Source: a virus. From it: DNA of 41,567 nt. The stretch is taken from IMG/VR virus record IMGVR_UViG_3300015245_000022, positions 1-41,567 of that record; one strand, given 5' to 3'. How positions within the stretch are numbered: position 1 is the first letter of the stretch; each line of letters begins with the position of its first letter. Positions 3,010 to 39,236 of the stretch are shown here, in pieces. The notes beneath the pieces are model-generated. The model was not told the DNA's origin. It was given only the letters and a program-made list of their open reading frames with translations, and searched no databases. A program made the position numbers and the translations under genes.

Positions 3010-3288
3010 TTGCTGGAAACGAGTTTAGAGACGAAATTGCGCCTGTTGGTGCAAAAGATGGGTGGTTTTTGCATCAAGCTCAACCCCCAGTGGAATATCG
3101 GGATCCCCGATCGCGTCATAATTCTACCTAAGCGTGTAATCTTCGTAGAATTGAAACGGCCGGGCAGCCGGCGGCTATCGACGACGCAGAAATTCTGGCG
3201 CGACCGTCTACAACTCCTAGGTTGTGAATACTGGCTTTGCAATTCGGAGCAGAGAATCGAAGAAATGCTGATGCCGACGCGGGTATGA
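3010..3288 (+). CDS. VRR-NUC domain nuclease
   Basis: This 92-residue stand-alone VRR-NUC domain (PD-(D/E)XK superfamily) is typical of phages, where it usually neighbours a SNF2-type helicase, as here from 4519. The visible catalytic set is D34 in GIPD, then E47 and K49 in FVELKRPG. The start is TTG at 3010, six bases after a near-perfect GGAGGT ribosome site; no ATG fits better. Such proteins cut branched or flapped DNA, and a role in processing replication intermediates is expected. Its base composition is less GC-rich than most of the genome. Its stop lies inside the terminator of the convergent outer-membrane protein gene. Confidence 0.88.
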   Translation: MLETSLETKLRLLVQKMGGFCIKLNPQWNIGIPDRVIILPKRVIFVELKRPGSRRLSTTQKFWRDRLQLLGCEYWLCNSEQRIEEMLMPTRV

Positions 3289-3314
3289 AAAAAGCGGCGC
3301 ATCGATGGCGCCGC
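3288..3314 (-). terminator. Rho-independent terminator of the outer-membrane protein gene
   Basis: The stem GCGGCGC (3294-3300) pairs with GCGCCGC (3308-3314) around a 7-base loop. On the minus strand the hairpin is followed by six T (3293-3288). It ends the transcript of the 3352-4047 gene and overlaps the last base of the VRR-NUC stop. Confidence 0.85.
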
Positions 3315-3351
3315 CGAGTATCCTTTGGGAGGAAACGTGTGCAGGTGTTTC

Positions 3352-4047
3352 CTACTGCACAGGGAGCTTATACGTGATCCCGAACAGCCCGACAAGAGCT
3401 GAAGTATCGGTCTTGACGGAAAAGTTCCGTTCGTCGACGAGTGTCTCCTCGCCATAATTCACATACCGGCCGAGACCTTTCAGGTACCAGTTGTCATAAA
3501 GCCGGCTTTCGAAGCCGAGTTCACCGTAGTAGCCAAAGAAATCCGGGACCTTGAGGTGATCGCCACCTGCCAGACGGATGTCGTCCATCGAGGCGCCGGC
3601 AATACCGCCACTCACATAGAAGAGCGTGTCGGGACTGAGCATCAGGCCGAGGCGCGGTCCGAAAACATAACCCCAATCCTGTTCCGCGGACACGAGGTCC
3701 GTGCCGTCGACCGTGGTCTTGAACTCGGCATTGCCGAGGTTCAAGCCCCCCTGCACGCCAAGCACGATCCGGCCCATGACATGATAGTCGGCGCCGAGCT
3801 GCACTTCTCCGAACAGTCCATCCCGACCGAGGCTATCGATCGTGGCGCTATTGCCATAGTCGTCGGTGGCTTTCAGTTTGTCGTCCTGAAAATTATATCC
3901 ACCCAGAACGCCCACCCAGATTTCCAACGCTGTGCCGCTCGGGGTGACCGAAGGCGTGTCCTTCAATCCAGGGTTGTAAATATCCGCCGCATGCGCGGCG
4001 GAGACCCCCACAATCAGCAAAACGATTGTTGCAAGACTGCCTTTCAT
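3352..4047 (-). CDS. Outer-membrane beta-barrel protein, Omp25/RopB-like (phage-borne)
   Basis: This 231-residue protein has a textbook signal peptide: MKGS, then a hydrophobic core and an AHA cleavage site after residue 20, giving a mature N-terminus ADIYNP. The mature part consists of alternating amphipathic strands with Gly/aromatic turns (LGGYNF, VLGVQGGLNLG, FYVSGGIAG, LVGLFGITYKL), as in the 8-strand Omp25/Omp31/RopB porin-like family of alphaproteobacteria. It ends in PVQ rather than the usual terminal aromatic residue, which may slow BAM-dependent assembly. It is a lone leftward gene with its own ribosome site (GGAGAA) and terminator, inserted between rightward DNA-metabolism genes like a moron. 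The likely effect is a change to the host surface, for example superinfection exclusion; this is inference. Confidence 0.85.
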   Translation of the reverse strand: MKGSLATIVLLIVGVSAAHAADIYNPGLKDTPSVTPSGTALEIWVGVLGGYNFQDDKLKATDDYGNSATIDSLGRDGLFGEVQLGADYHVMGRIVLGVQGGLNLGNAEFKTTVDGTDLVSAEQDWGYVFGPRLGLMLSPDTLFYVSGGIAGASMDDIRLAGGDHLKVPDFFGYYGELGFESRLYDNWYLKGLGRYVNYGEETLVDERNFSVKTDTSALVGLFGITYKLPVQ

Positions 4048-4136
4048 TGTCTATTTCTCCATTCGTGCGCAGAATCGCGCAAACAGGGTCTAGCAAATAA
4101 AATTGTCACAGTTCTACAAAAAACAGGGAGAGTTGA

Positions 4137-4322
4137 ATGGACAGCGCGCAGATAAATGCCTTTATGGCGTGGATCGAGACACAAATTAAACTAGAAGTTG
4201 CACGAGATAACGATCCGCATTCACGAGAAACCGTCGAAGCACAGTATGACGAATCGGATTCACGTGAGCAACTAGCGAGAGCATTCGGCATGCTTGTCGT
4301 CTCGGATAGGCGGATTATGTGA
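4137..4322 (+). CDS. Small acidic protein, first gene of helicase operon
   Basis: This 61-residue, mostly helical protein starts at 4137 six bases after an AACAGGGAG ribosome site. It is the head of a rightward four-gene operon; its stop overlaps the next start as TGATG. It contains charged Glu/Arg helices and no recognisable domain. Its position before the helicase suggests an early accessory factor, but no function can be assigned. Confidence 0.7.
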   Translation: MDSAQINAFMAWIETQIKLEVARDNDPHSRETVEAQYDESDSREQLARAFGMLVVSDRRIM

Positions 4323-4522
4323 TGGTCACCGAGCATCTTGTGCAGCGGCGCGGGCAATTGTCGCCGGCCGATAACTATGTCGAATATGTCGTGCCGCATC
4401 TGATCACCGATGCGGCGGCCATCGAGACGCGCGGCAGTCGTCGGGGTACGATCATGCGGCTGATGCGCCATGCGTTCGAGGCGGGACGGGAGTATGAGCG
4501 GGCGAAGGCGACTGCCCGATGA
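4319..4522 (+). CDS. Small protein coupled to helicase
   Basis: A protein of 66 or 67 residues; the start is GTG 4319 or ATG 4322, the latter overlapping the upstream stop. The C-terminal half is an Arg-rich helix (RRGTIMRLMRHAFEAGREYERAKA). The stop overlaps the helicase start by four bases (ATGA), so production is coupled to the helicase. The family is not recognised; a helicase cofactor or nucleic-acid binding role would fit the basic helix. Confidence 0.7.
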   Translation: MMVTEHLVQRRGQLSPADNYVEYVVPHLITDAAAIETRGSRRGTIMRLMRHAFEAGREYERAKATAR

Positions 4523-5826
4523 CTCTGCCCCCGATGAACCCAATGCAAGAACGGATGATCGACTTTGCATTGGATATGCCTCATTGTGCGTGGTTTGCCT
4601 GTCCAGGTATGGGGAAGACCCGTGCTGCTTTGGATGTGATCGCACAGACTTCAGGCCGGACGCTGGTCATTGCGCCTAAGCTAGTCTGCTTGTCGGTGTG
4701 GCCGACAGAGAACCGCAAATGGGGCTATGATCACTCCATGCGCTTCCTGCACGGCCGGGACCGTCATCTCCGCGGCCGCGAGCGAGTAAGTCTGGTCAAC
4801 TACGACGCTCTCCCCTGGCTCGTCGAGCAGATGGAGCTGGAGCGCGAGTCCCCCTACGATCTTGTGATCTATGACGAGTTGTCGAAACTGAAGAACCCCG
4901 AGGCCAAGCGCTTCGCCGCGTGGGAGCATGTGCTCGGCCGGTTCGAATACCGGCTCGGCATGACCGGGACTCCGGTCGGCGCGCATCTCAAAGACCTGTT
5001 CGGCGAGATGTATGTGGTCGACCATGGCCGGTCGCTCGGCAGTGACTACCGACGGTTCTTGCGCCAGTATTTCCATGAGAACGAATACACCTACCAGCTC
5101 GAACCCTACAGCGACACCGAGGCGACGTTGCTCGATCTGATCCGGCCACGGGCGATCAGCTTCGACATCGACGATCTGGACATGCCGCCACTCATTCATA
5201 ACCCCGTCTCGCTGGAACTGCCCGGCGAGGTGGTACGCTATTATGAGGAGCTGCATGAGCACAGTCTGGTCGAAGACCTGGACGTCTACGCCATGAACGC
5301 GGCGGTGCGCTCGGGCAAGAAACGGCAGATGGCGAGCGGGACGGTGATCGATATGCAGGGCGAGCGGAAGCTGTTGCATGACGCCAAGGCCGAGCGGCTG
5401 GCGGAGATCGTCGCCGAGTTGCAAGGCCGGCCGGTGATGGTCTTCTTCGAGTTCCTGCACGACTACGAGGCAATCTGTAAGGTGCTGGGACCGACACCGG
5501 CACTCTATGGCGGGACGTCGACCCGGGATGCGGTCCAGCATGTGGAGGATTGGAACGCCGGCCGGCTGCCTGCCTTGGCCTTGCATCCCCGAAGCGCCGC
5601 GTATGGCGTAAATCTCCAAGATTCTGGGAGTGTTATCGTGTGGTTCACGATTCCGTGGTCATATGAGATGGTCCATCAAGGCACTTGTCGCCTCTGGCGA
5701 CAGGGACAGCGGAACAAAGTGATCGTGCATTATCTGATCGTGGCGGGTACCGAAGACGAACGTGTGTTCGACCGCGTCCAGGAACGCGCTGGCACGCATG
5801 ACCGGGTGATGGAGGGGTTGCTGTGA
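4519..5826 (+). CDS. SNF2-type DEAD/DEAH-box DNA helicase
   Basis: A 435-residue superfamily 2 ATPase. Walker A is PGMGKT at residues 29-34, Walker B is VIYDELS with D119 and E120, and motif III is TGTP at 149-152. A C-terminal RecA-like lobe ends with the arginine-finger motif HQGTCRLWRQGQ around 386-397, typical of phage SNF2-like helicases. The DEAH box reads DELS. The start overlaps the previous gene (ATGA) and the stop overlaps the next. Together with the VRR-NUC nuclease it probably remodels or processes replication forks and recombination intermediates. Confidence 0.93.
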   Translation: MTLPPMNPMQERMIDFALDMPHCAWFACPGMGKTRAALDVIAQTSGRTLVIAPKLVCLSVWPTENRKWGYDHSMRFLHGRDRHLRGRERVSLVNYDALPWLVEQMELERESPYDLVIYDELSKLKNPEAKRFAAWEHVLGRFEYRLGMTGTPVGAHLKDLFGEMYVVDHGRSLGSDYRRFLRQYFHENEYTYQLEPYSDTEATLLDLIRPRAISFDIDDLDMPPLIHNPVSLELPGEVVRYYEELHEHSLVEDLDVYAMNAAVRSGKKRQMASGTVIDMQGERKLLHDAKAERLAEIVAELQGRPVMVFFEFLHDYEAICKVLGPTPALYGGTSTRDAVQHVEDWNAGRLPALALHPRSAAYGVNLQDSGSVIVWFTIPWSYEMVHQGTCRLWRQGQRNKVIVHYLIVAGTEDERVFDRVQERAGTHDRVMEGLL

Positions 5827-6234: not shown

Positions 6235-8703
6235 ATGCTTGCACCGAATGAAGCCACGATCCGCGAGTTCTTGAGTACAGTCCTCCACGAACGTGGAATC
6301 ATCCACCTCTACCGCATAGACCCCACTCCCGACAATAAGAATAGAAAGCAGAGACCTGTCGGGTTTATCACCACATCCATAGACGACGCGATCGATTGGA
6401 TCGTCAAATACAACAAAAAGTGCAATATCTATTACGCGTGGAACTTTCCTTCCTCCATACAGACTAAGAAAGCTAAAGAAAAAGAGATCCTTTGGCTTGC
6501 CGGCTGCCACGTCGATATCGACTGCCCCGATGGACTCCTGCCGGACGCGCTCGCAAAGCTGAACTGGTTGCAAGTCACGGCGGAAAAATGCCGGAAGGCG
6601 ATCGTTTCGGCCATGCTACCAGTCCTGATCATGACTGGTAACGGCATCCAGGCGTTGTGGGAATTCGATGAGCCGATCCACGCCTCCGCCGAGATGGTAG
6701 AGAAGGTCACCGACCTCAACCGGCGCCTCGCCGCGCTGCTCGGTGGCGACAAATGCCACAATGTCGACCGGGTCCTGCGTTTGCCTGGCACGGTCAACTG
6801 GCCCGACACCAAGAAGCTCGCCAAGGGCTGTGTGCCAGTCCTGGCCGAGCTGTGGGGCACGGGGAACACATGGACCTTCGCCGAGCTGGAGAGCCTTCCC
6901 CCGGCACCTGCGGCCACCTCGCCCACCCCAAGCGGCAAGCGCGAGGACCCTCGCCTGCACGAGTACACCGAGGGTTTCATACCGCTCGGGATAGCTGCAT
7001 TGTTGCAGGTCTGGCCCGACCTCGAACAGCGGCTCGACGGTAAGCCTTCGCACTCCGAAGCGTTGTTTTCCTTCGTCTGGTATGCTGCCGATGCGTTGCT
7101 CTACCTATCGCAGGGCCGCGATGACATCGCCGACTATGCCATCTCCAAAGACATCCGCCGCAACATTATCGAGCTGATGTATGAGAGTGGCTTCTCCTTC
7201 CTCGATCATATGGAGCGTAACGGACCGGGCAAGGTCGGTCGCGATATCGAGAAGGCACTCGCGGGTTATGTGGAAGCCAAGCAAGGCCGCACGAAACATA
7301 CGCTTGCCCGCCGGGTCGAGCAGAACCGGCAACGGATCGATCGTGACGCCAAGCCGGCCGATGCGCGCACAGCCGTCGATTGGCGCCAGATCTTTCTCCA
7401 GTTCACGCGCAAGCGGATGCGCAAGGAAGATTTGCCGAACTGCCGCATGGGCCGCGACACGGTGGCAGTCCAGCAGCCGACCACAGAAGTCAATATCCGG
7501 TATTGCCTGGAGAGATGGCAGATCACGGCGAGCTGGGACGCGATGCGCGAGCAGCCGGACTATCTGTGCAAGAATGAGGAAGCCCCGACTGCCTTGCGCG
7601 AGATCCAACGGACCATGCCCGACGACCAGAAGGCTCGCGGGCTGGAGGCGCTGATCATCGATGCGCTGCAGGATATGGGGCTGAGCGGCAGGCGGGAGCT
7701 GAGCGGGATCCTGCAGGAGATCGCCCGTAACGACCGCTATCACCCGTTGGAGGACTACGTCACGAGCCGGCCGTGGGACGGCGTGCCGCGCATCGCGGAC
7801 GTCGCTGCCTGCCTGCAAAGCGCGAACCCGTTGAAGGAGACCTATCTGCGGATCTTCTTCCGCGCCTGTGTCGCGGCGGTGGTATCGCTCGACAGGTATA
7901 AGGTCACCGGCGATGTGGGCGAGCAGATATCGTCCGTGGTCGTATTGGTCGGGGCACAGGGCATCGGCAAGAGCCGGCTGTGGCAGGCGCTGACCCCCAC
8001 CGGCTTCCGGTCCAAGGGGTCCAGCCTGCGGCTCGGCACACACCGAGAGAGCGATGCCAAGCGCGAGTGTCTGACCGGTATGGTCTGCACCCTCAACGAG
8101 ATCGGACACACCTTCAAGCGCTCGGATGCCGAAGCATTGAAGGATTTCATCTCCCAGGACTATGACGAGTTTCGCGTCGCCTATGCCCAGCACCCGGTCT
8201 CGCGGCCGCGCATGACGGTGTTCACCGGTACGGAGAACGCGTTGGAGCTGAGCGATGAGACAGGTTCGAGGCGGTTCCTCGTGTTGGAGGTGAGCGCTAT
8301 CGACCTGCACGCCTTGGGGCGAATCGACCTGCAGCAGTGCTTCGCCGAGGCCTGGCACGAGGTTATGGAAGACGATCGACCGTGGTGGCTGACGGCGGAG
8401 CAGGATGCTGTCCGCGAGCAGTGGAACGCCAAGCACACGACCGAAGCGCCGGAGTGTGAAATGGTCCGCGAGTATCTGAACGATGTCGGGGCACAACACC
8501 AGTACCGGCCAGTCAGTATGCATCAGATCCGCAAGCTGTTCGATATGGACCCGCTGAATGGCAATAAGCGTTTTGCCAATATCAAGCGCATCCTCGATCA
8601 GTATAATATTGCATTCCATTACGAATATGAAGAGCAGGACCGGAAATACCACAAGGTATGGCTATTTCCGGTCTTGCCTGAGAAAATATCACTTATTGGC
8701 TAA
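6235..8703 (+). CDS. Primase-helicase: RepB-like primase with VirE-type P-loop ATPase
   Basis: An 822-residue two-part replication protein. The N-terminal region carries a RepB-like primase signature (CHVDIDC, with D94 and D96) and the RLPGTVNWP motif typical of this primase family. The C-terminal half is a virulence-associated E (VirE) helicase with Walker A GAQGIGKS at 573-580 and a downstream ETGSRRFLVLEV segment characteristic of the family. The start at 6235 has a GGAG site seven bases upstream. The protein should prime and unwind DNA for the phage family A polymerase. Its 3' end overlaps the convergent gene at 8689-8901 by 15 bp. Confidence 0.93.
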   Translation: MLAPNEATIREFLSTVLHERGIIHLYRIDPTPDNKNRKQRPVGFITTSIDDAIDWIVKYNKKCNIYYAWNFPSSIQTKKAKEKEILWLAGCHVDIDCPDGLLPDALAKLNWLQVTAEKCRKAIVSAMLPVLIMTGNGIQALWEFDEPIHASAEMVEKVTDLNRRLAALLGGDKCHNVDRVLRLPGTVNWPDTKKLAKGCVPVLAELWGTGNTWTFAELESLPPAPAATSPTPSGKREDPRLHEYTEGFIPLGIAALLQVWPDLEQRLDGKPSHSEALFSFVWYAADALLYLSQGRDDIADYAISKDIRRNIIELMYESGFSFLDHMERNGPGKVGRDIEKALAGYVEAKQGRTKHTLARRVEQNRQRIDRDAKPADARTAVDWRQIFLQFTRKRMRKEDLPNCRMGRDTVAVQQPTTEVNIRYCLERWQITASWDAMREQPDYLCKNEEAPTALREIQRTMPDDQKARGLEALIIDALQDMGLSGRRELSGILQEIARNDRYHPLEDYVTSRPWDGVPRIADVAACLQSANPLKETYLRIFFRACVAAVVSLDRYKVTGDVGEQISSVVVLVGAQGIGKSRLWQALTPTGFRSKGSSLRLGTHRESDAKRECLTGMVCTLNEIGHTFKRSDAEALKDFISQDYDEFRVAYAQHPVSRPRMTVFTGTENALELSDETGSRRFLVLEVSAIDLHALGRIDLQQCFAEAWHEVMEDDRPWWLTAEQDAVREQWNAKHTTEAPECEMVREYLNDVGAQHQYRPVSMHQIRKLFDMDPLNGNKRFANIKRILDQYNIAFHYEYEEQDRKYHKVWLFPVLPEKISLIG

Positions 8704-8901
8704 TTGACGGCATTTGTCACAAATATGCATCCATGTGCCGTAACTGTCATACGCTCGCCAGCCTCTAGCTCGCAGGAACGTTATTGCTTGTTGGAAATGA
8801 CGATCTTTAGCGTCGAGCGATTCGCGGCAGCCTTTTTCGTTGCAGGTCACCAGCCAATCGCCTTTATCGTCTGCTCGTGGGCGGGTTTTCTCGATGGTCA
8901 T
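8689..8901 (-). CDS. Small zinc-ribbon-like protein
   Basis: This 70-residue protein has two cysteine pairs, C20/C25 (CNEKGC) and C61/C64 (CDKC), consistent with a treble-clef or zinc-ribbon fold. Between them lies a helical segment QQAITFLRARGWRAY. Its start overlaps the XRE regulator stop as ATGA, and its end overlaps the primase gene on the other strand. It is probably a small nucleic-acid or protein-binding factor co-expressed with the regulator; the target is unknown. Confidence 0.75.
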   Translation of the reverse strand: MTIEKTRPRADDKGDWLVTCNEKGCRESLDAKDRHFQQAITFLRARGWRAYDSYGTWMHICDKCRQLANK

Positions 8902-9161
8902 TCGCCGACCGCCCGCCGTAGCAGGAGTCCGCGGAGCTCATGCGGCTTCCACAAGCCGACCATGAGCTGCACGAGCAGCGCACCGGCGACGGGTACGCTC
9001 GCGGCGAGTTCCCAGTTCGAGATGGTGGCAGGGGTGACGCCAAGCGCCAAGCCGAGCTGCCGTTGCGAGAGACGTAGATCCGTAGTGCGCAACTGGCGCA
9101 GCTCGGCGCCGGAGATCACAGCGCCGAGAGGATGGAAGGTGATAGGTGTGGTTGACACCAT
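8898..9161 (-). CDS. XRE/Cro-family transcriptional regulator
   Basis: An 87-residue protein with one helix-turn-helix at residues about 32-51 (LSQRQLGLALGV then TPATISNWE), the standard XRE pattern, followed by a hydrophobic dimerisation-type segment. The ATG at 9161 is preceded by AAGGAG nine bases upstream. It is a candidate ligand for the operator-like palindromes at 11800-11817 and 11938-11964. No lysogeny genes accompany it, so it is more likely an early/late switch regulator than an immunity repressor. Confidence 0.85.
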   Translation of the reverse strand: MVSTTPITFHPLGAVISGAELRQLRTTDLRLSQRQLGLALGVTPATISNWELAASVPVAGALLVQLMVGLWKPHELRGLLLRRAVGE

Positions 9162-26620: not shown

Positions 26621-28096
26621 GTGCCCGATCCCATCCAGCTTCCATTCGGCGCCTGGCTGCCCGATTTGCCGGCGAACAACAACCCGGGGGCGTTGATCGC
26701 GAAGAACTGTATCCCCGGACCGCAGTCCTATCGGGAACTGCGCTCACTCGCTTCTTTCACCGATGCGCTCGATGGGCCGGCGAAGGGTGTGTTTTGGGCG
26801 CGCAACGAGAGCGATACGGTATTCGCGTTTGCCGGCGATATGACTAAGCTTTACTTGCTCGACGCGTCGACTTCGTGGACGGATGTGAGCCAGGCCGCGA
26901 CGACCTACTCGGCGGATTTTTGGGACTTCGTCACTTTCGAGAACCGGGTGCTGGCCACGGACGGGTCGAGCAATATCCAGTTCTACGACCTTGGACTGTC
27001 GACGACATTCGACGATCTCGCCGGTTCGCCGCCGCACGCCAAGGTCATCGGTGTGGTGCGCGACTTCGTCGTGCTTGGTAATATCCGCGACGACGCGACG
27101 TTCAAACAGGATGCGATTGCATGGTCGGGTTTCAACAACACGGAGTTGTGGACGCCGTCTCGCGCCACGCAATCGGATCGGCTTTCACTGCGTGGCAATG
27201 GCGGCGCTGTGCGGCGTGTTGTTGGCGGTCAGACCGGATTTATCTTTCAGGAGAATTCGGTCCAGAAGATGGACTATGTTGGCCCTCCGACAGTCTTCCG
27301 TATCGACGAGTTTGCGACCAGTCATGGCACAAACGCCTCACGCGCAGTAACTGCGACAAAGGATTATGTTTTTTACTATGCCATGGACGGTTTCTACCGA
27401 TTGGATCGGCGGACGTTGGAGATTCGGCCGCTCAGCGCGGATCGCAATCAGGACTGGTTCACCCACGAGATCGCACCGGCTGAGATCTTCAACATGGTCG
27501 GCGCGGCGGCGCGGCTGCATCCGATCATCTATTGGGTATTCCGGACATCGTCTTCGGTGACGAATTATGACCGTATGCTGATCTATAATTGGGTTGCGGA
27601 CCGGTTCAGCTATGCCGAGATCGAGACGCAGTTCATCGGTGGGTTTGCCAGCACTGGCGCCAATCTCGACACGCTAGACACCGTGCTCGGCGGCGATATC
27701 GACGCGGCCAGCATCCCGGTCGACACGAACGCATTCGCCGGTGGAGTGCTCGATCTGATCGCCTTCGATTCGGACAATCAGGCGGCAGCCTTCGAAGGCC
27801 CGGCGCTGGTGGCCGAGTTCGATACCACGGAGTTCGGCGGCAGCGGCGATTTCATCTATCTCGATCATCTGCGGCCGATTGTGGATAGTGCGGGCGGTAC
27901 TGTGGAAGTGGCGCCGCTGACCAGAAACGGATTGAGTGCGACTCCCGTTCTTGGTTCGTTCGTTTCACTCAACAGGCTAGGCAATGCCAACGTCCGCACC
28001 AATCGGCAGTATCACCGCTACCGGGTGCGCATTACCGGTGGGTTCGAGCATGCGCAGCGCGTGGAGTTCGAGCCGCAAGCACGGGGGTCGCGATAA
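26621..28096 (+). CDS. Tail nozzle/stabilisation protein
   Basis: A 491-residue protein starting with GTG at 26621 after AAGGAGTGAG. It contains beta-propeller-like repeats (VFWARNESDTVFAFAG, LYLLDASTSWTDV, FEN and RVLATDGSSNIQFYDL) and the motif WSGFNNTELWTPS, characteristic of podovirus tail nozzle or P22 gp10-like stabilisation proteins. It should form the hexameric nozzle below the adaptor. Its stop overlaps the next ATG (TAATG). Confidence 0.85.
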   Translation: MPDPIQLPFGAWLPDLPANNNPGALIAKNCIPGPQSYRELRSLASFTDALDGPAKGVFWARNESDTVFAFAGDMTKLYLLDASTSWTDVSQAATTYSADFWDFVTFENRVLATDGSSNIQFYDLGLSTTFDDLAGSPPHAKVIGVVRDFVVLGNIRDDATFKQDAIAWSGFNNTELWTPSRATQSDRLSLRGNGGAVRRVVGGQTGFIFQENSVQKMDYVGPPTVFRIDEFATSHGTNASRAVTATKDYVFYYAMDGFYRLDRRTLEIRPLSADRNQDWFTHEIAPAEIFNMVGAAARLHPIIYWVFRTSSSVTNYDRMLIYNWVADRFSYAEIETQFIGGFASTGANLDTLDTVLGGDIDAASIPVDTNAFAGGVLDLIAFDSDNQAAAFEGPALVAEFDTTEFGGSGDFIYLDHLRPIVDSAGGTVEVAPLTRNGLSATPVLGSFVSLNRLGNANVRTNRQYHRYRVRITGGFEHAQRVEFEPQARGSR

Positions 28097-29256
28097 TGGC
28101 GCTCGGCGGCGGTGAAGACGGTAAGGGCAAGGGTGACAGCATGGCGGGTCTGCCTGCGATCTGGCCGGCGCCTGAAGAGCTGGCTGCGCGCCTTCGGCCG
28201 TCACCCGAGGAGACCGCGCTTGCCGGTATGGACCCGCTCGATGCGTTGCGTCTCTCCCGTGAGTTGCAGAACAAGCGAGTTTACACGCCAGAGCAGGCAG
28301 CGGCGAACCGCTTGCAGACTTTGACCGATGTGGGTCATGTGATCCCGGTCCTCGGCAACGTCATGTCGGCGCACGATGCGGTCAACTACTGGTCGGACGC
28401 GGCGACCAATGCCGACGAACTGGAGGCGCATAAATCGACCGTTCTGGGCCAGCTATCGGCGCTGGGGGCGATCACTGGCTTGCCGTTTGGGCGTACCGCC
28501 GCACAAGTCGCAAAAGAGGCGCCGGATACGCTACCGGTGATCTTTGCCTACCACGGTTCGCCTCACGATTTCAACGATTTCAAACTTGACAAGATTGGAA
28601 CCGGAGAGGGCGCGCAAGCTTATGGGCATGGGCTGTACTTTGCGGAGAATCCGGCGACGGCGATCTCATACAGAGAGGCGCTTGCAAAGAAGCATCAACT
28701 CAATCCGCAACAGGGCAATCTGGGCGATATCCGCAGCGCAGTCGATTGGCTGAACTCTGGCCGGAAAGGTGAGTCTCCATCCGCCGTGGGGCAGCACATC
28801 GATGACGCCATTCACGACCTGAGAAGCGACTACATCAAGGGTCCGTTCCCAAACCCGACCGACGCACAGATTGCCGCCCATCTGGAGGGCAACTTTGCGC
28901 CGCGCGGCCGCCTCTACCATACGGAACTCGACGTCAATCACGAAGACTTGCTGGACTGGGACAAGCCGCTGAGTCAGCAGAGCGAGAAGGTGCGCGTTTC
29001 ATTGGCTAAGCTCGGTCTGGATGAAGATACTGTCAAGCCATATCCGCGATTGGACTCACCGATAACCGGAGAACGGATTCTGCGCCAACTTCAAGTCAAT
29101 CATCAGATTGGCCCGGATGAAGCGACAAGTAAACTTTACGCCGCCGGCATCCCTGGCATCAGATATCTAGATCAAGGTTCTAGAGACGCCGGTAAGGGTA
29201 CGAGCAATTACGTCATCTTCGACGACAAGCTTGCAAAGATCTTGAGCAAGGAATGA
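28096..29256 (+). CDS. Virion-cluster protein with ADP-ribosyltransferase-like domain
   Basis: A 386-residue two-part protein. Residues 1-145 resemble a tail or ejection-type N-terminus with helices (PLDALRLSRELQNKR). Residues 149-386 carry an ADP-ribosyltransferase-like signature: AYHGSPHDF (H153), GTGEGAQAYGHGLYFAEN (Y181), and a C-terminal GTSNYVIFDD strand, as in the ART domains of phage large polyvalent proteins. The H and Y fit the H-Y-E class; the catalytic Glu is not certain. It is overlapped by the next gene (ATGA). The protein may ride in the virion and modify a host target after injection; this is inference. Confidence 0.82.
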   Translation: MALGGGEDGKGKGDSMAGLPAIWPAPEELAARLRPSPEETALAGMDPLDALRLSRELQNKRVYTPEQAAANRLQTLTDVGHVIPVLGNVMSAHDAVNYWSDAATNADELEAHKSTVLGQLSALGAITGLPFGRTAAQVAKEAPDTLPVIFAYHGSPHDFNDFKLDKIGTGEGAQAYGHGLYFAENPATAISYREALAKKHQLNPQQGNLGDIRSAVDWLNSGRKGESPSAVGQHIDDAIHDLRSDYIKGPFPNPTDAQIAAHLEGNFAPRGRLYHTELDVNHEDLLDWDKPLSQQSEKVRVSLAKLGLDEDTVKPYPRLDSPITGERILRQLQVNHQIGPDEATSKLYAAGIPGIRYLDQGSRDAGKGTSNYVIFDDKLAKILSKE

Positions 29257-38332: not shown

Positions 38333-38391
38333 GCGATGACCGCGACAATATCGGCGAGCACAATCAAACTGGAAATGACAGTGATCGTCAT
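38314..38391 (-). CDS. 25-residue hydrophobic micropeptide
   Basis: The product MTITVISSLIVLADIVAVIA and five more residues is essentially one transmembrane helix. Its ATG shares a base with the stop of the ParB-like gene (TGATG), so it would be translated by re-initiation. Very short coupled frames can be accidental, but the clean hydrophobic profile is notable. It is the last frame of the leftward operon. Confidence 0.4.
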   Translation of the reverse strand: MTITVISSLIVLADIVAVIAWAVLT

Positions 38392-39236
38392 CACGAACTC
38401 ACTAAGGTTTTTACTTCAAATTTTGTATGCAGATTCTTGTTCAATTCGTCCAGCATACCTTGTGCCCATACCTTAGCCCCGCCCCTAGCATAGTATGCAG
38501 ACGCGCGCCTAGCTGCGTTTACGAGTCTTTCCGATCCTACTTTAAGTAAACGCTCGCAGAACTTTTGATCTTTGAGCATCGCTATTTCCGAGCAGGTATG
38601 GATATAGTATAGGCCATCCAATAGGTGTTCGGCGATAGGCCCGACATTTCGGCACATTTCTACGCATATTCTGACCGTGGTCTCGAAAGCAGCTCTGTTT
38701 TCTTGTGCTTTGCGTAGCGACCAACCAACAGAAGCCAGTTCTAATGGAGATGCTGCGCCAGAAGATCGTGGTTTTACCCCCAGTTCACTAAAGAGATCCC
38801 GTATATAGATAGCGACGGGATCTTCCGCAGCTATTAATGCTTTGAATTTGTCGATACTGGAAAGCGGTTTTCGCACTGAATTAACATTCAAAAAACCTTT
38901 CGCTTCTTGCTCGACTGTATGAGTCAAGAAAACGATACAAGGAAGTGTAGTAATATCTGCACGTCGCATAGCTGCTATCACGCGATGTTGGCCATCGATT
39001 ACCCAATATTCACCACCACGTTTACCGATTACTATAGTTCCGCATGCGATCCAAGACCAGGCAGAAGCCATTTCGAGGGCTCTCCCGGTACTCAGTTGGC
39101 GTTGATAATCCGGATGCATTTTCAGGCGTTTCTTATCAAGCAGCATAAGCTCACCCGGTTGGTCTTTCAACTTCCAGGCGTATCTTTCGATCTTTGTTGT
39201 ATTCTTAGTGGTGTAATCTTTTTCGATGATGTTCAT
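38391..39236 (-). CDS. ParB/DGQHR-type protein (AT-rich cassette)
   Basis: A 281-residue ParB-like nuclease-fold protein with the diagnostic WVIDGQHRVIAA motif (D81 to R85) and an upstream HPDYQR element, as in DUF6551-like and DGQHR proteins of phages and islands. The helical C-terminal half may bind DNA or a partner. GGAGT lies about seven bases before the ATG at 39236. It follows the polymerase gene in the same operon but is much richer in A+T (20 G/C in bases 38401-38460 against 41 in 39601-39660), suggesting recent acquisition. Confidence 0.85.
   Translation of the reverse strand: MNIIEKDYTTKNTTKIERYAWKLKDQPGELMLLDKKRLKMHPDYQRQLSTGRALEMASAWSWIACGTIVIGKRGGEYWVIDGQHRVIAAMRRADITTLPCIVFLTHTVEQEAKGFLNVNSVRKPLSSIDKFKALIAAEDPVAIYIRDLFSELGVKPRSSGAASPLELASVGWSLRKAQENRAAFETTVRICVEMCRNVGPIAEHLLDGLYYIHTCSEIAMLKDQKFCERLLKVGSERLVNAARRASAYYARGGAKVWAQGMLDELNKNLHTKFEVKTLVSS

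Follow-up and report, generated by a model that had tools for sequence, protein, structure and literature searches.

A phage-borne outer-membrane beta-barrel gene in a reversed cassette of a podovirus-like genome

The window analysed here, an IMG/VR record of 41,567 bp, is a complete circular phage genome with a 77-bp terminal direct repeat, and it carries a separately organized gene for an outer-membrane beta-barrel protein, which we consider, with a probability of roughly 80%, to be an accessory gene whose product alters the host surface. The gene and its cassette, as well as the family, fold and clade of the encoded protein, were established by computation; from the signal peptide and the fold we infer membrane insertion, and the most likely purpose of the protein is a change of the host surface that benefits the phage. 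Outer-membrane barrels encoded by phages are known as a kind of protein that has mostly gone unstudied (viral structure libraries hold many unstudied entries named “outer membrane protein beta-barrel”), and the present case provides a defined and separable gene on a complete genome, with which the question of how non-enterobacterial phages employ such barrels can be addressed.

A reversed cassette between two DNA-metabolism genes

Genes for terminase, portal, head, stabilisation and ejection proteins give the window a podovirus-like gene set. Contamination of the contig with host DNA was excluded by the single circular phage record, the terminal repeat and the presence of phage genes on both sides of the barrel gene. 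The initial annotation, made from the sequence alone, had described a reversed, self-contained gene with its own ribosome site and terminator, located between two DNA-metabolism genes, and all of these elements were recovered (Table 1). The barrel gene is flanked by VRR-NUC endonuclease and SNF2-type helicase genes, both on the other strand, with two small ORFs preceding the helicase gene. Its ORF starts with ATG, and its terminator (GGCGGCGC-(7 nt)-GCGCCGCT-TTTTT) is the richest in G-C pairs among the sites of a 3-kb region (fold z -2.1), where terminator-like sites numbered 5 in total compared to 3.0 +/- 1.6 in shuffled sequences. The divergent intergenic region contains a TGCGCA palindrome (4066-4071); beyond the start region, nothing convincing as a sigma-70 site was detected, and no clear promoter was identified for the barrel gene. 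A search of the entire window against Rfam gave no match.

Table 1 Features of the barrel gene and its surroundings in the window.
Feature	Position	Strand	Basis
VRR-NUC endonuclease gene, one flank	3010..3288	+	PF08774 E 1.5e-6; phrog_93 E 1.6e-16
Intrinsic terminator, 8-bp stem and T run	3293..3315	-	Terminator search
Outer-membrane beta-barrel protein gene, 231 aa	3352..4047	-	ORF, PF13505, AlphaFold2, tree
Signal-peptide coding region, predicted cleavage AHA/AD	3988..4047	-	Sequence; same position in relatives
Divergent intergenic region, 89 bp, expected promoter location	4048..4136		Sequence
Shine-Dalgarno-like GGAG, 9 nt upstream of ATG	4057..4060	-	Sequence
61-aa ORF, function unassigned, divergent neighbour	4137..4322	+	ORF list, Pfam and PHROG searches
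67-aa ORF, function unassigned	4319..4522	+	ORF list, Pfam search
SNF2-type DNA helicase gene, other flank	4519..5826	+	phrog_62 E 3.9e-108
VapE/VirE-type primase-helicase gene, same replication cassette	6235..8703	+	PF05272 E 7e-37

The GC content of the barrel gene at the three codon positions (0.62/0.40/0.69) is similar to that of the phage core genes, with which its synonymous codon usage also correlates (0.72), and this agreement indicates a real gene whose composition fits the phage. An artefactual ORF was excluded by the codon-position GC together with the profile match and its controls (see below).

Several observations bear on how the gene came to its location. Enterococcus phage phiFL4A has VirE, VRR_NUC and helicase genes in uninterrupted order, with no gap between VRR_NUC and helicase. 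The family profile, which recovers the window gene at E 3.6e-59 as well as rhizobial homologues, found no barrel gene in 26 portal-related phage records, some of which are fragments; the phages nearest by portal (L002, L009 and L010; 54–58%) are fragments that lack the early region. In three near-complete relatives, the interval from the DUF2800 exonuclease to the helicase holds other small ORFs. Taken together, the opposite strand, the split between VRR-NUC and helicase, the absence from the relatives searched and the different ORFs in the interval give the gene the layout of an inserted accessory gene. With regard to the features that characterize “morons”, we observed the strand, the gene's own terminator, the split and the absence from the relatives searched, and found neither a promoter nor a close empty site.

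The same setting bears on whether the barrel is part of the particle or acts at lysis, as might be proposed from three relatives (L063, L069 and L094) that are located near tail or lysis genes. Within the replication region, the window gene runs against its neighbours and encodes a signal peptide; it is also absent from all portal-related phages searched, and these features together make a virion or lysis component highly improbable.

Domain family, predicted fold and topology

A phage-encoded outer-membrane beta-barrel had been proposed at the outset, with a structure prediction and an Omp25-family profile search as suggested checks, and both were carried out. The Pfam family PF13505 (OMP_b-brl; curated cut-off 28.7 bits) matched the mature protein above the cut-off (31.9 bits, E 1.8e-7), but the precursor slightly below it (27.5 bits, E 4.1e-6), and no such match arose when the mature sequence was reversed (one version) or shuffled (five versions). 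No match to the Ail/Lom profile was detected; at E<=1 and at E<=10 alike, OMP_b-brl was the only Pfam family returned. AlphaFold2, supplied with 21 sequences (the barrel protein and 20 relatives), predicted eight long strands (pLDDT 84, pTM 0.76) that span residues 41–229 and form an antiparallel barrel; a model computed from the single sequence was discarded (pLDDT 31). Solved structures that match the predicted barrel include OmpA, OmpW, Ail and OmpX. Structures of the FadL family also rank high by E-value, but their TM-scores are low, which is expected since barrels of unequal strand number are being compared.

By inspection of the sequence, the precursor begins with a signal peptide at residues 1–20, for which the AHA cleavage proposed in the initial annotation was likewise predicted, with A-x-A at -3/-1 and the junction falling between MKGSLATIVLLIVGVSAAHA and ADIY. 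A presumably periplasmic N-terminal tail with a GLKDTP motif follows, and then the barrel. In the family alignment, the three turns measure 6–9 residues in nearly all members and the loops vary, outer loop 1 the most, a pattern consistent with periplasmic turns and external loops. Measured as an alignment region, loop 1 ranges from about 18 to 107 residues across the clade described below and reaches 83–107 residues in L063, L079 and L094. It comprises about 21 residues in the window protein; as this is short, the loop argument rests on the relatives. Such variability would fit outward loops under varied selection. In a further barrel (L149:6007-7329), outer loop 1 is enlarged by considerably more than 200 inserted residues, with cysteine repeats (LKDGKCY-like) among them.

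The last strand (LFGITYKL) is followed by PVQ, so that the C-terminal residue is Gln and not an aromatic, as the first reading of the sequence had also noted. Outer-membrane proteins carry an aromatic-rich beta-signal at this end (reviewed in PMC7383365), and that of the window protein is non-canonical for recognition by the BAM complex. The aromatic is missing in 9 of the 10 clade members compared to 3 of the 20 other rows of the tree (Fisher p 1.3e-4, uncorrected for relatedness), which makes the odd C-terminus a shared trait rather than a private oddity.

A clade of barrels from phage contigs

When used as a single query, the barrel protein found no relative in INPHARED, PLSDB, viral_contigs or genome_contigs. 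A degenerate DNA search for the first-strand motif WTGFY[VI]G retrieved some 22 barrel genes from viral contigs, and with phmmer the window protein matched L069 (E 1e-17), L079 (7e-12), L113 and L063, and later L121 and L119; L116 and L117, from an N-terminal motif search, were dismissed as chance hits. In a maximum-likelihood tree, the window protein falls within a ten-sequence clade drawn entirely from viral contigs (support 99/98; listed members L069, L079/L144, L121/L143, L119/L147, L063, L094, L113 and L108), and a tree built without the long branches L069 and L132 still joins it to the other seven (97/95). Its own branch is long, and it shares at most about 29% identity with the relatives in the tree. 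The cellular rows number only five (Sinorhizobium, Mesorhizobium and Methylovirgula, whose homologues the family profile also matches); they fall outside the clade in both trees, as does a copy from Agrobacterium phage Rivra. The clade is so far known only from IMG/VR phage contigs, the genome collection having been searched with short peptide patterns. The cellular relatives of the family are the sole basis on which Hyphomicrobiales are suggested as the host of the window phage; a portal-alignment scan of genome_contigs detected no prophages or hosts. As a side observation, CP090106.1, listed among plasmids under the label S. meliloti pSymB, is 3.7 Mb long and carries coaBC, and looks like a mislabelled chromosome.

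The description “Omp25/RopB-like” that the protein had initially received thus holds at the level of the PF13505 superfamily and fails at the level of the clade, the tree, with its five cellular rows and the Rivra copy, having excluded membership in an Omp25 clade. Like the Brucella and rhizobial Omp25/Omp31/RopB-type proteins, the window protein has the PF13505 barrel domain, a signal peptide and the same strand pattern; unlike them, it belongs to the separate phage-contig clade (97–99% bootstrap), has IWVGVLGG instead of the WTGFYVG motif and ends in ITYKLPVQ without a C-terminal aromatic. Its closest relatives are the other clade barrels, several of which share an N-terminal KD(T/A)P motif; several of them reside in temperate phages. 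The contigs in question contain Rha (L143), Erf and a methylase (L145), integrase (L147 and L150) and RecT (L151) genes, and a tail fibre gene is also present among them. The window barrel is a variant within the alphaproteobacterial PF13505 lineage, distinct from Ail/Lom, with a clade and traits of its own.

One isolated phage with such a gene was found, namely Rivra (PV764937), whose gp27 is an Omp25-like barrel annotated as hypothetical in a Hyphomicrobiales phage. Its product groups with chromosomal homologues of S. meliloti, unlike the window protein, and hence points to an independent capture from a host. The gene (PV764937.1 22482-23144; L115:7923-8585) encodes a barrel of the rhizobial type, and the phage has an integrase gene. 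That captures of this kind occur, and that the window protein is an orphan at close range in the single-protein queries (INPHARED, PLSDB and two sequence collections), would be in line with a recently acquired host Omp25/RopB gene that is decaying or carried as neutral passenger cargo. We regard this as improbable, as the gene resembles the phage core in codon-position GC and codon usage, the 231-aa frame is intact, and the protein groups with barrels from phage contigs and not with cellular ones.

In two contigs of this family, an exported coiled-coil-like protein is encoded directly 3' of the phage barrel gene (L145:6969-7937 and L154:6624-7604). The two proteins are 33% identical to each other and end in a YadA membrane anchor (PF03895, E 2.5e-6 and 0.0017, respectively), which makes a pair of phage barrel and trimeric autotransporter possible.

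Candidate roles at the host surface

The reading that we prefer, an accessory barrel acting on the host surface, can be followed from gene to membrane. A “moron”-type gene would have been inserted into the replication region of the phage, where it would be transcribed alone from the opposite strand until its own terminator stops transcription. The host Sec system would export the product, and the BAM complex would insert it as an eight-stranded barrel, probably with the loops outside and the short N-terminal tail in the periplasm. With the barrel in the host outer membrane, the infected cell would bear a surface protein made by the phage. Receptor masking, a block of superinfection and a change of the envelope, the roles initially put forward, all fit the predicted barrel, and we consider superinfection exclusion (including receptor masking) and a lysogenic-type conversion to be about equally likely versions, each of them plausible and short of even odds.

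Which version applies is connected to the lifestyle of the phage. A PF00589 search detected no tyrosine integrase in the window, the control genomes being positive in 14 of 14 cases, and if the phage is lytic, the absence of an integrase means that the barrel needs to provide its benefit within one infection, which favours exclusion. An XRE/Cro-like regulator and a ParB-like/DUF6551 protein are also encoded (8898-9161 and 38391-39236, respectively). The phage may be lytic or a plasmid-like prophage.

For exclusion, the barrel would block or cover the phage receptor, so that particles are not taken up by cells already infected by a sibling or by the debris of lysed cells. The predicted outer-membrane location and the separate transcription of the gene are consistent with this role, and there is a precedent in lytic phages, since the T5 lipoprotein Llp, which jams FhuA, and the Cor proteins exclude superinfection by blocking this receptor (PMC9586334). 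The likeness to T5 Llp and T1 Cor, which are encoded by phages, reside in the outer membrane and shield the surface of infected cells, is a functional analogy only: the known exclusion proteins are small lipoproteins and not barrels, and they have no relation to the window protein in sequence or fold.

For conversion, the barrel would confer a surface trait such as adhesion, resistance to stress or predators, or resistance to other phages, in the manner of phage lambda Lom, an eight-stranded barrel that has been reported to promote adhesion (PMC4198210). As in the window, Lom is a phage-borne, separately placed outer-membrane barrel with a signal peptide, and the structural matches include its family members Ail and OmpX, a resemblance confined to the fold; in contrast to Lom, which comes from a temperate enterobacterial phage, the window protein lies outside the Ail/Lom sequence family, with PF13505 as its only match. 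The presence of integrase, Rha, Erf or RecT genes on the contigs of clade relatives, and the YadA-anchored stalk protein that follows the barrel in L145 and L154, argue for this version. Against it, the window phage has no integrase match, even if its XRE/Cro-like and ParB-like genes leave lysogeny possible.

More tentatively, and with some doubt on our part, the clade could represent a phage-specific barrel lineage, apart from its cellular Omp25-like cousins, that moves among alphaproteobacterial phages, both lytic-looking and temperate, and remodels the surface of infected cells against rival phages by means of its variable outer loops, sometimes with a neighbouring YadA-anchored stalk. The KD[TA]P tail, the non-aromatic C-terminus and the variable loop 1 are hallmarks that make surface remodelling by alphaproteobacterial phages testable.

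A separate observation concerns the structural module of the window, where a protein encoded at 28096-29256 contains an ADP-ribosyltransferase-like domain (ART-PolyVal, E 1.7e-4, below the cut-off). Its gene is located 3' of that for the stabilisation protein and 5' of those for the ejection proteins, and the protein is possibly injected.
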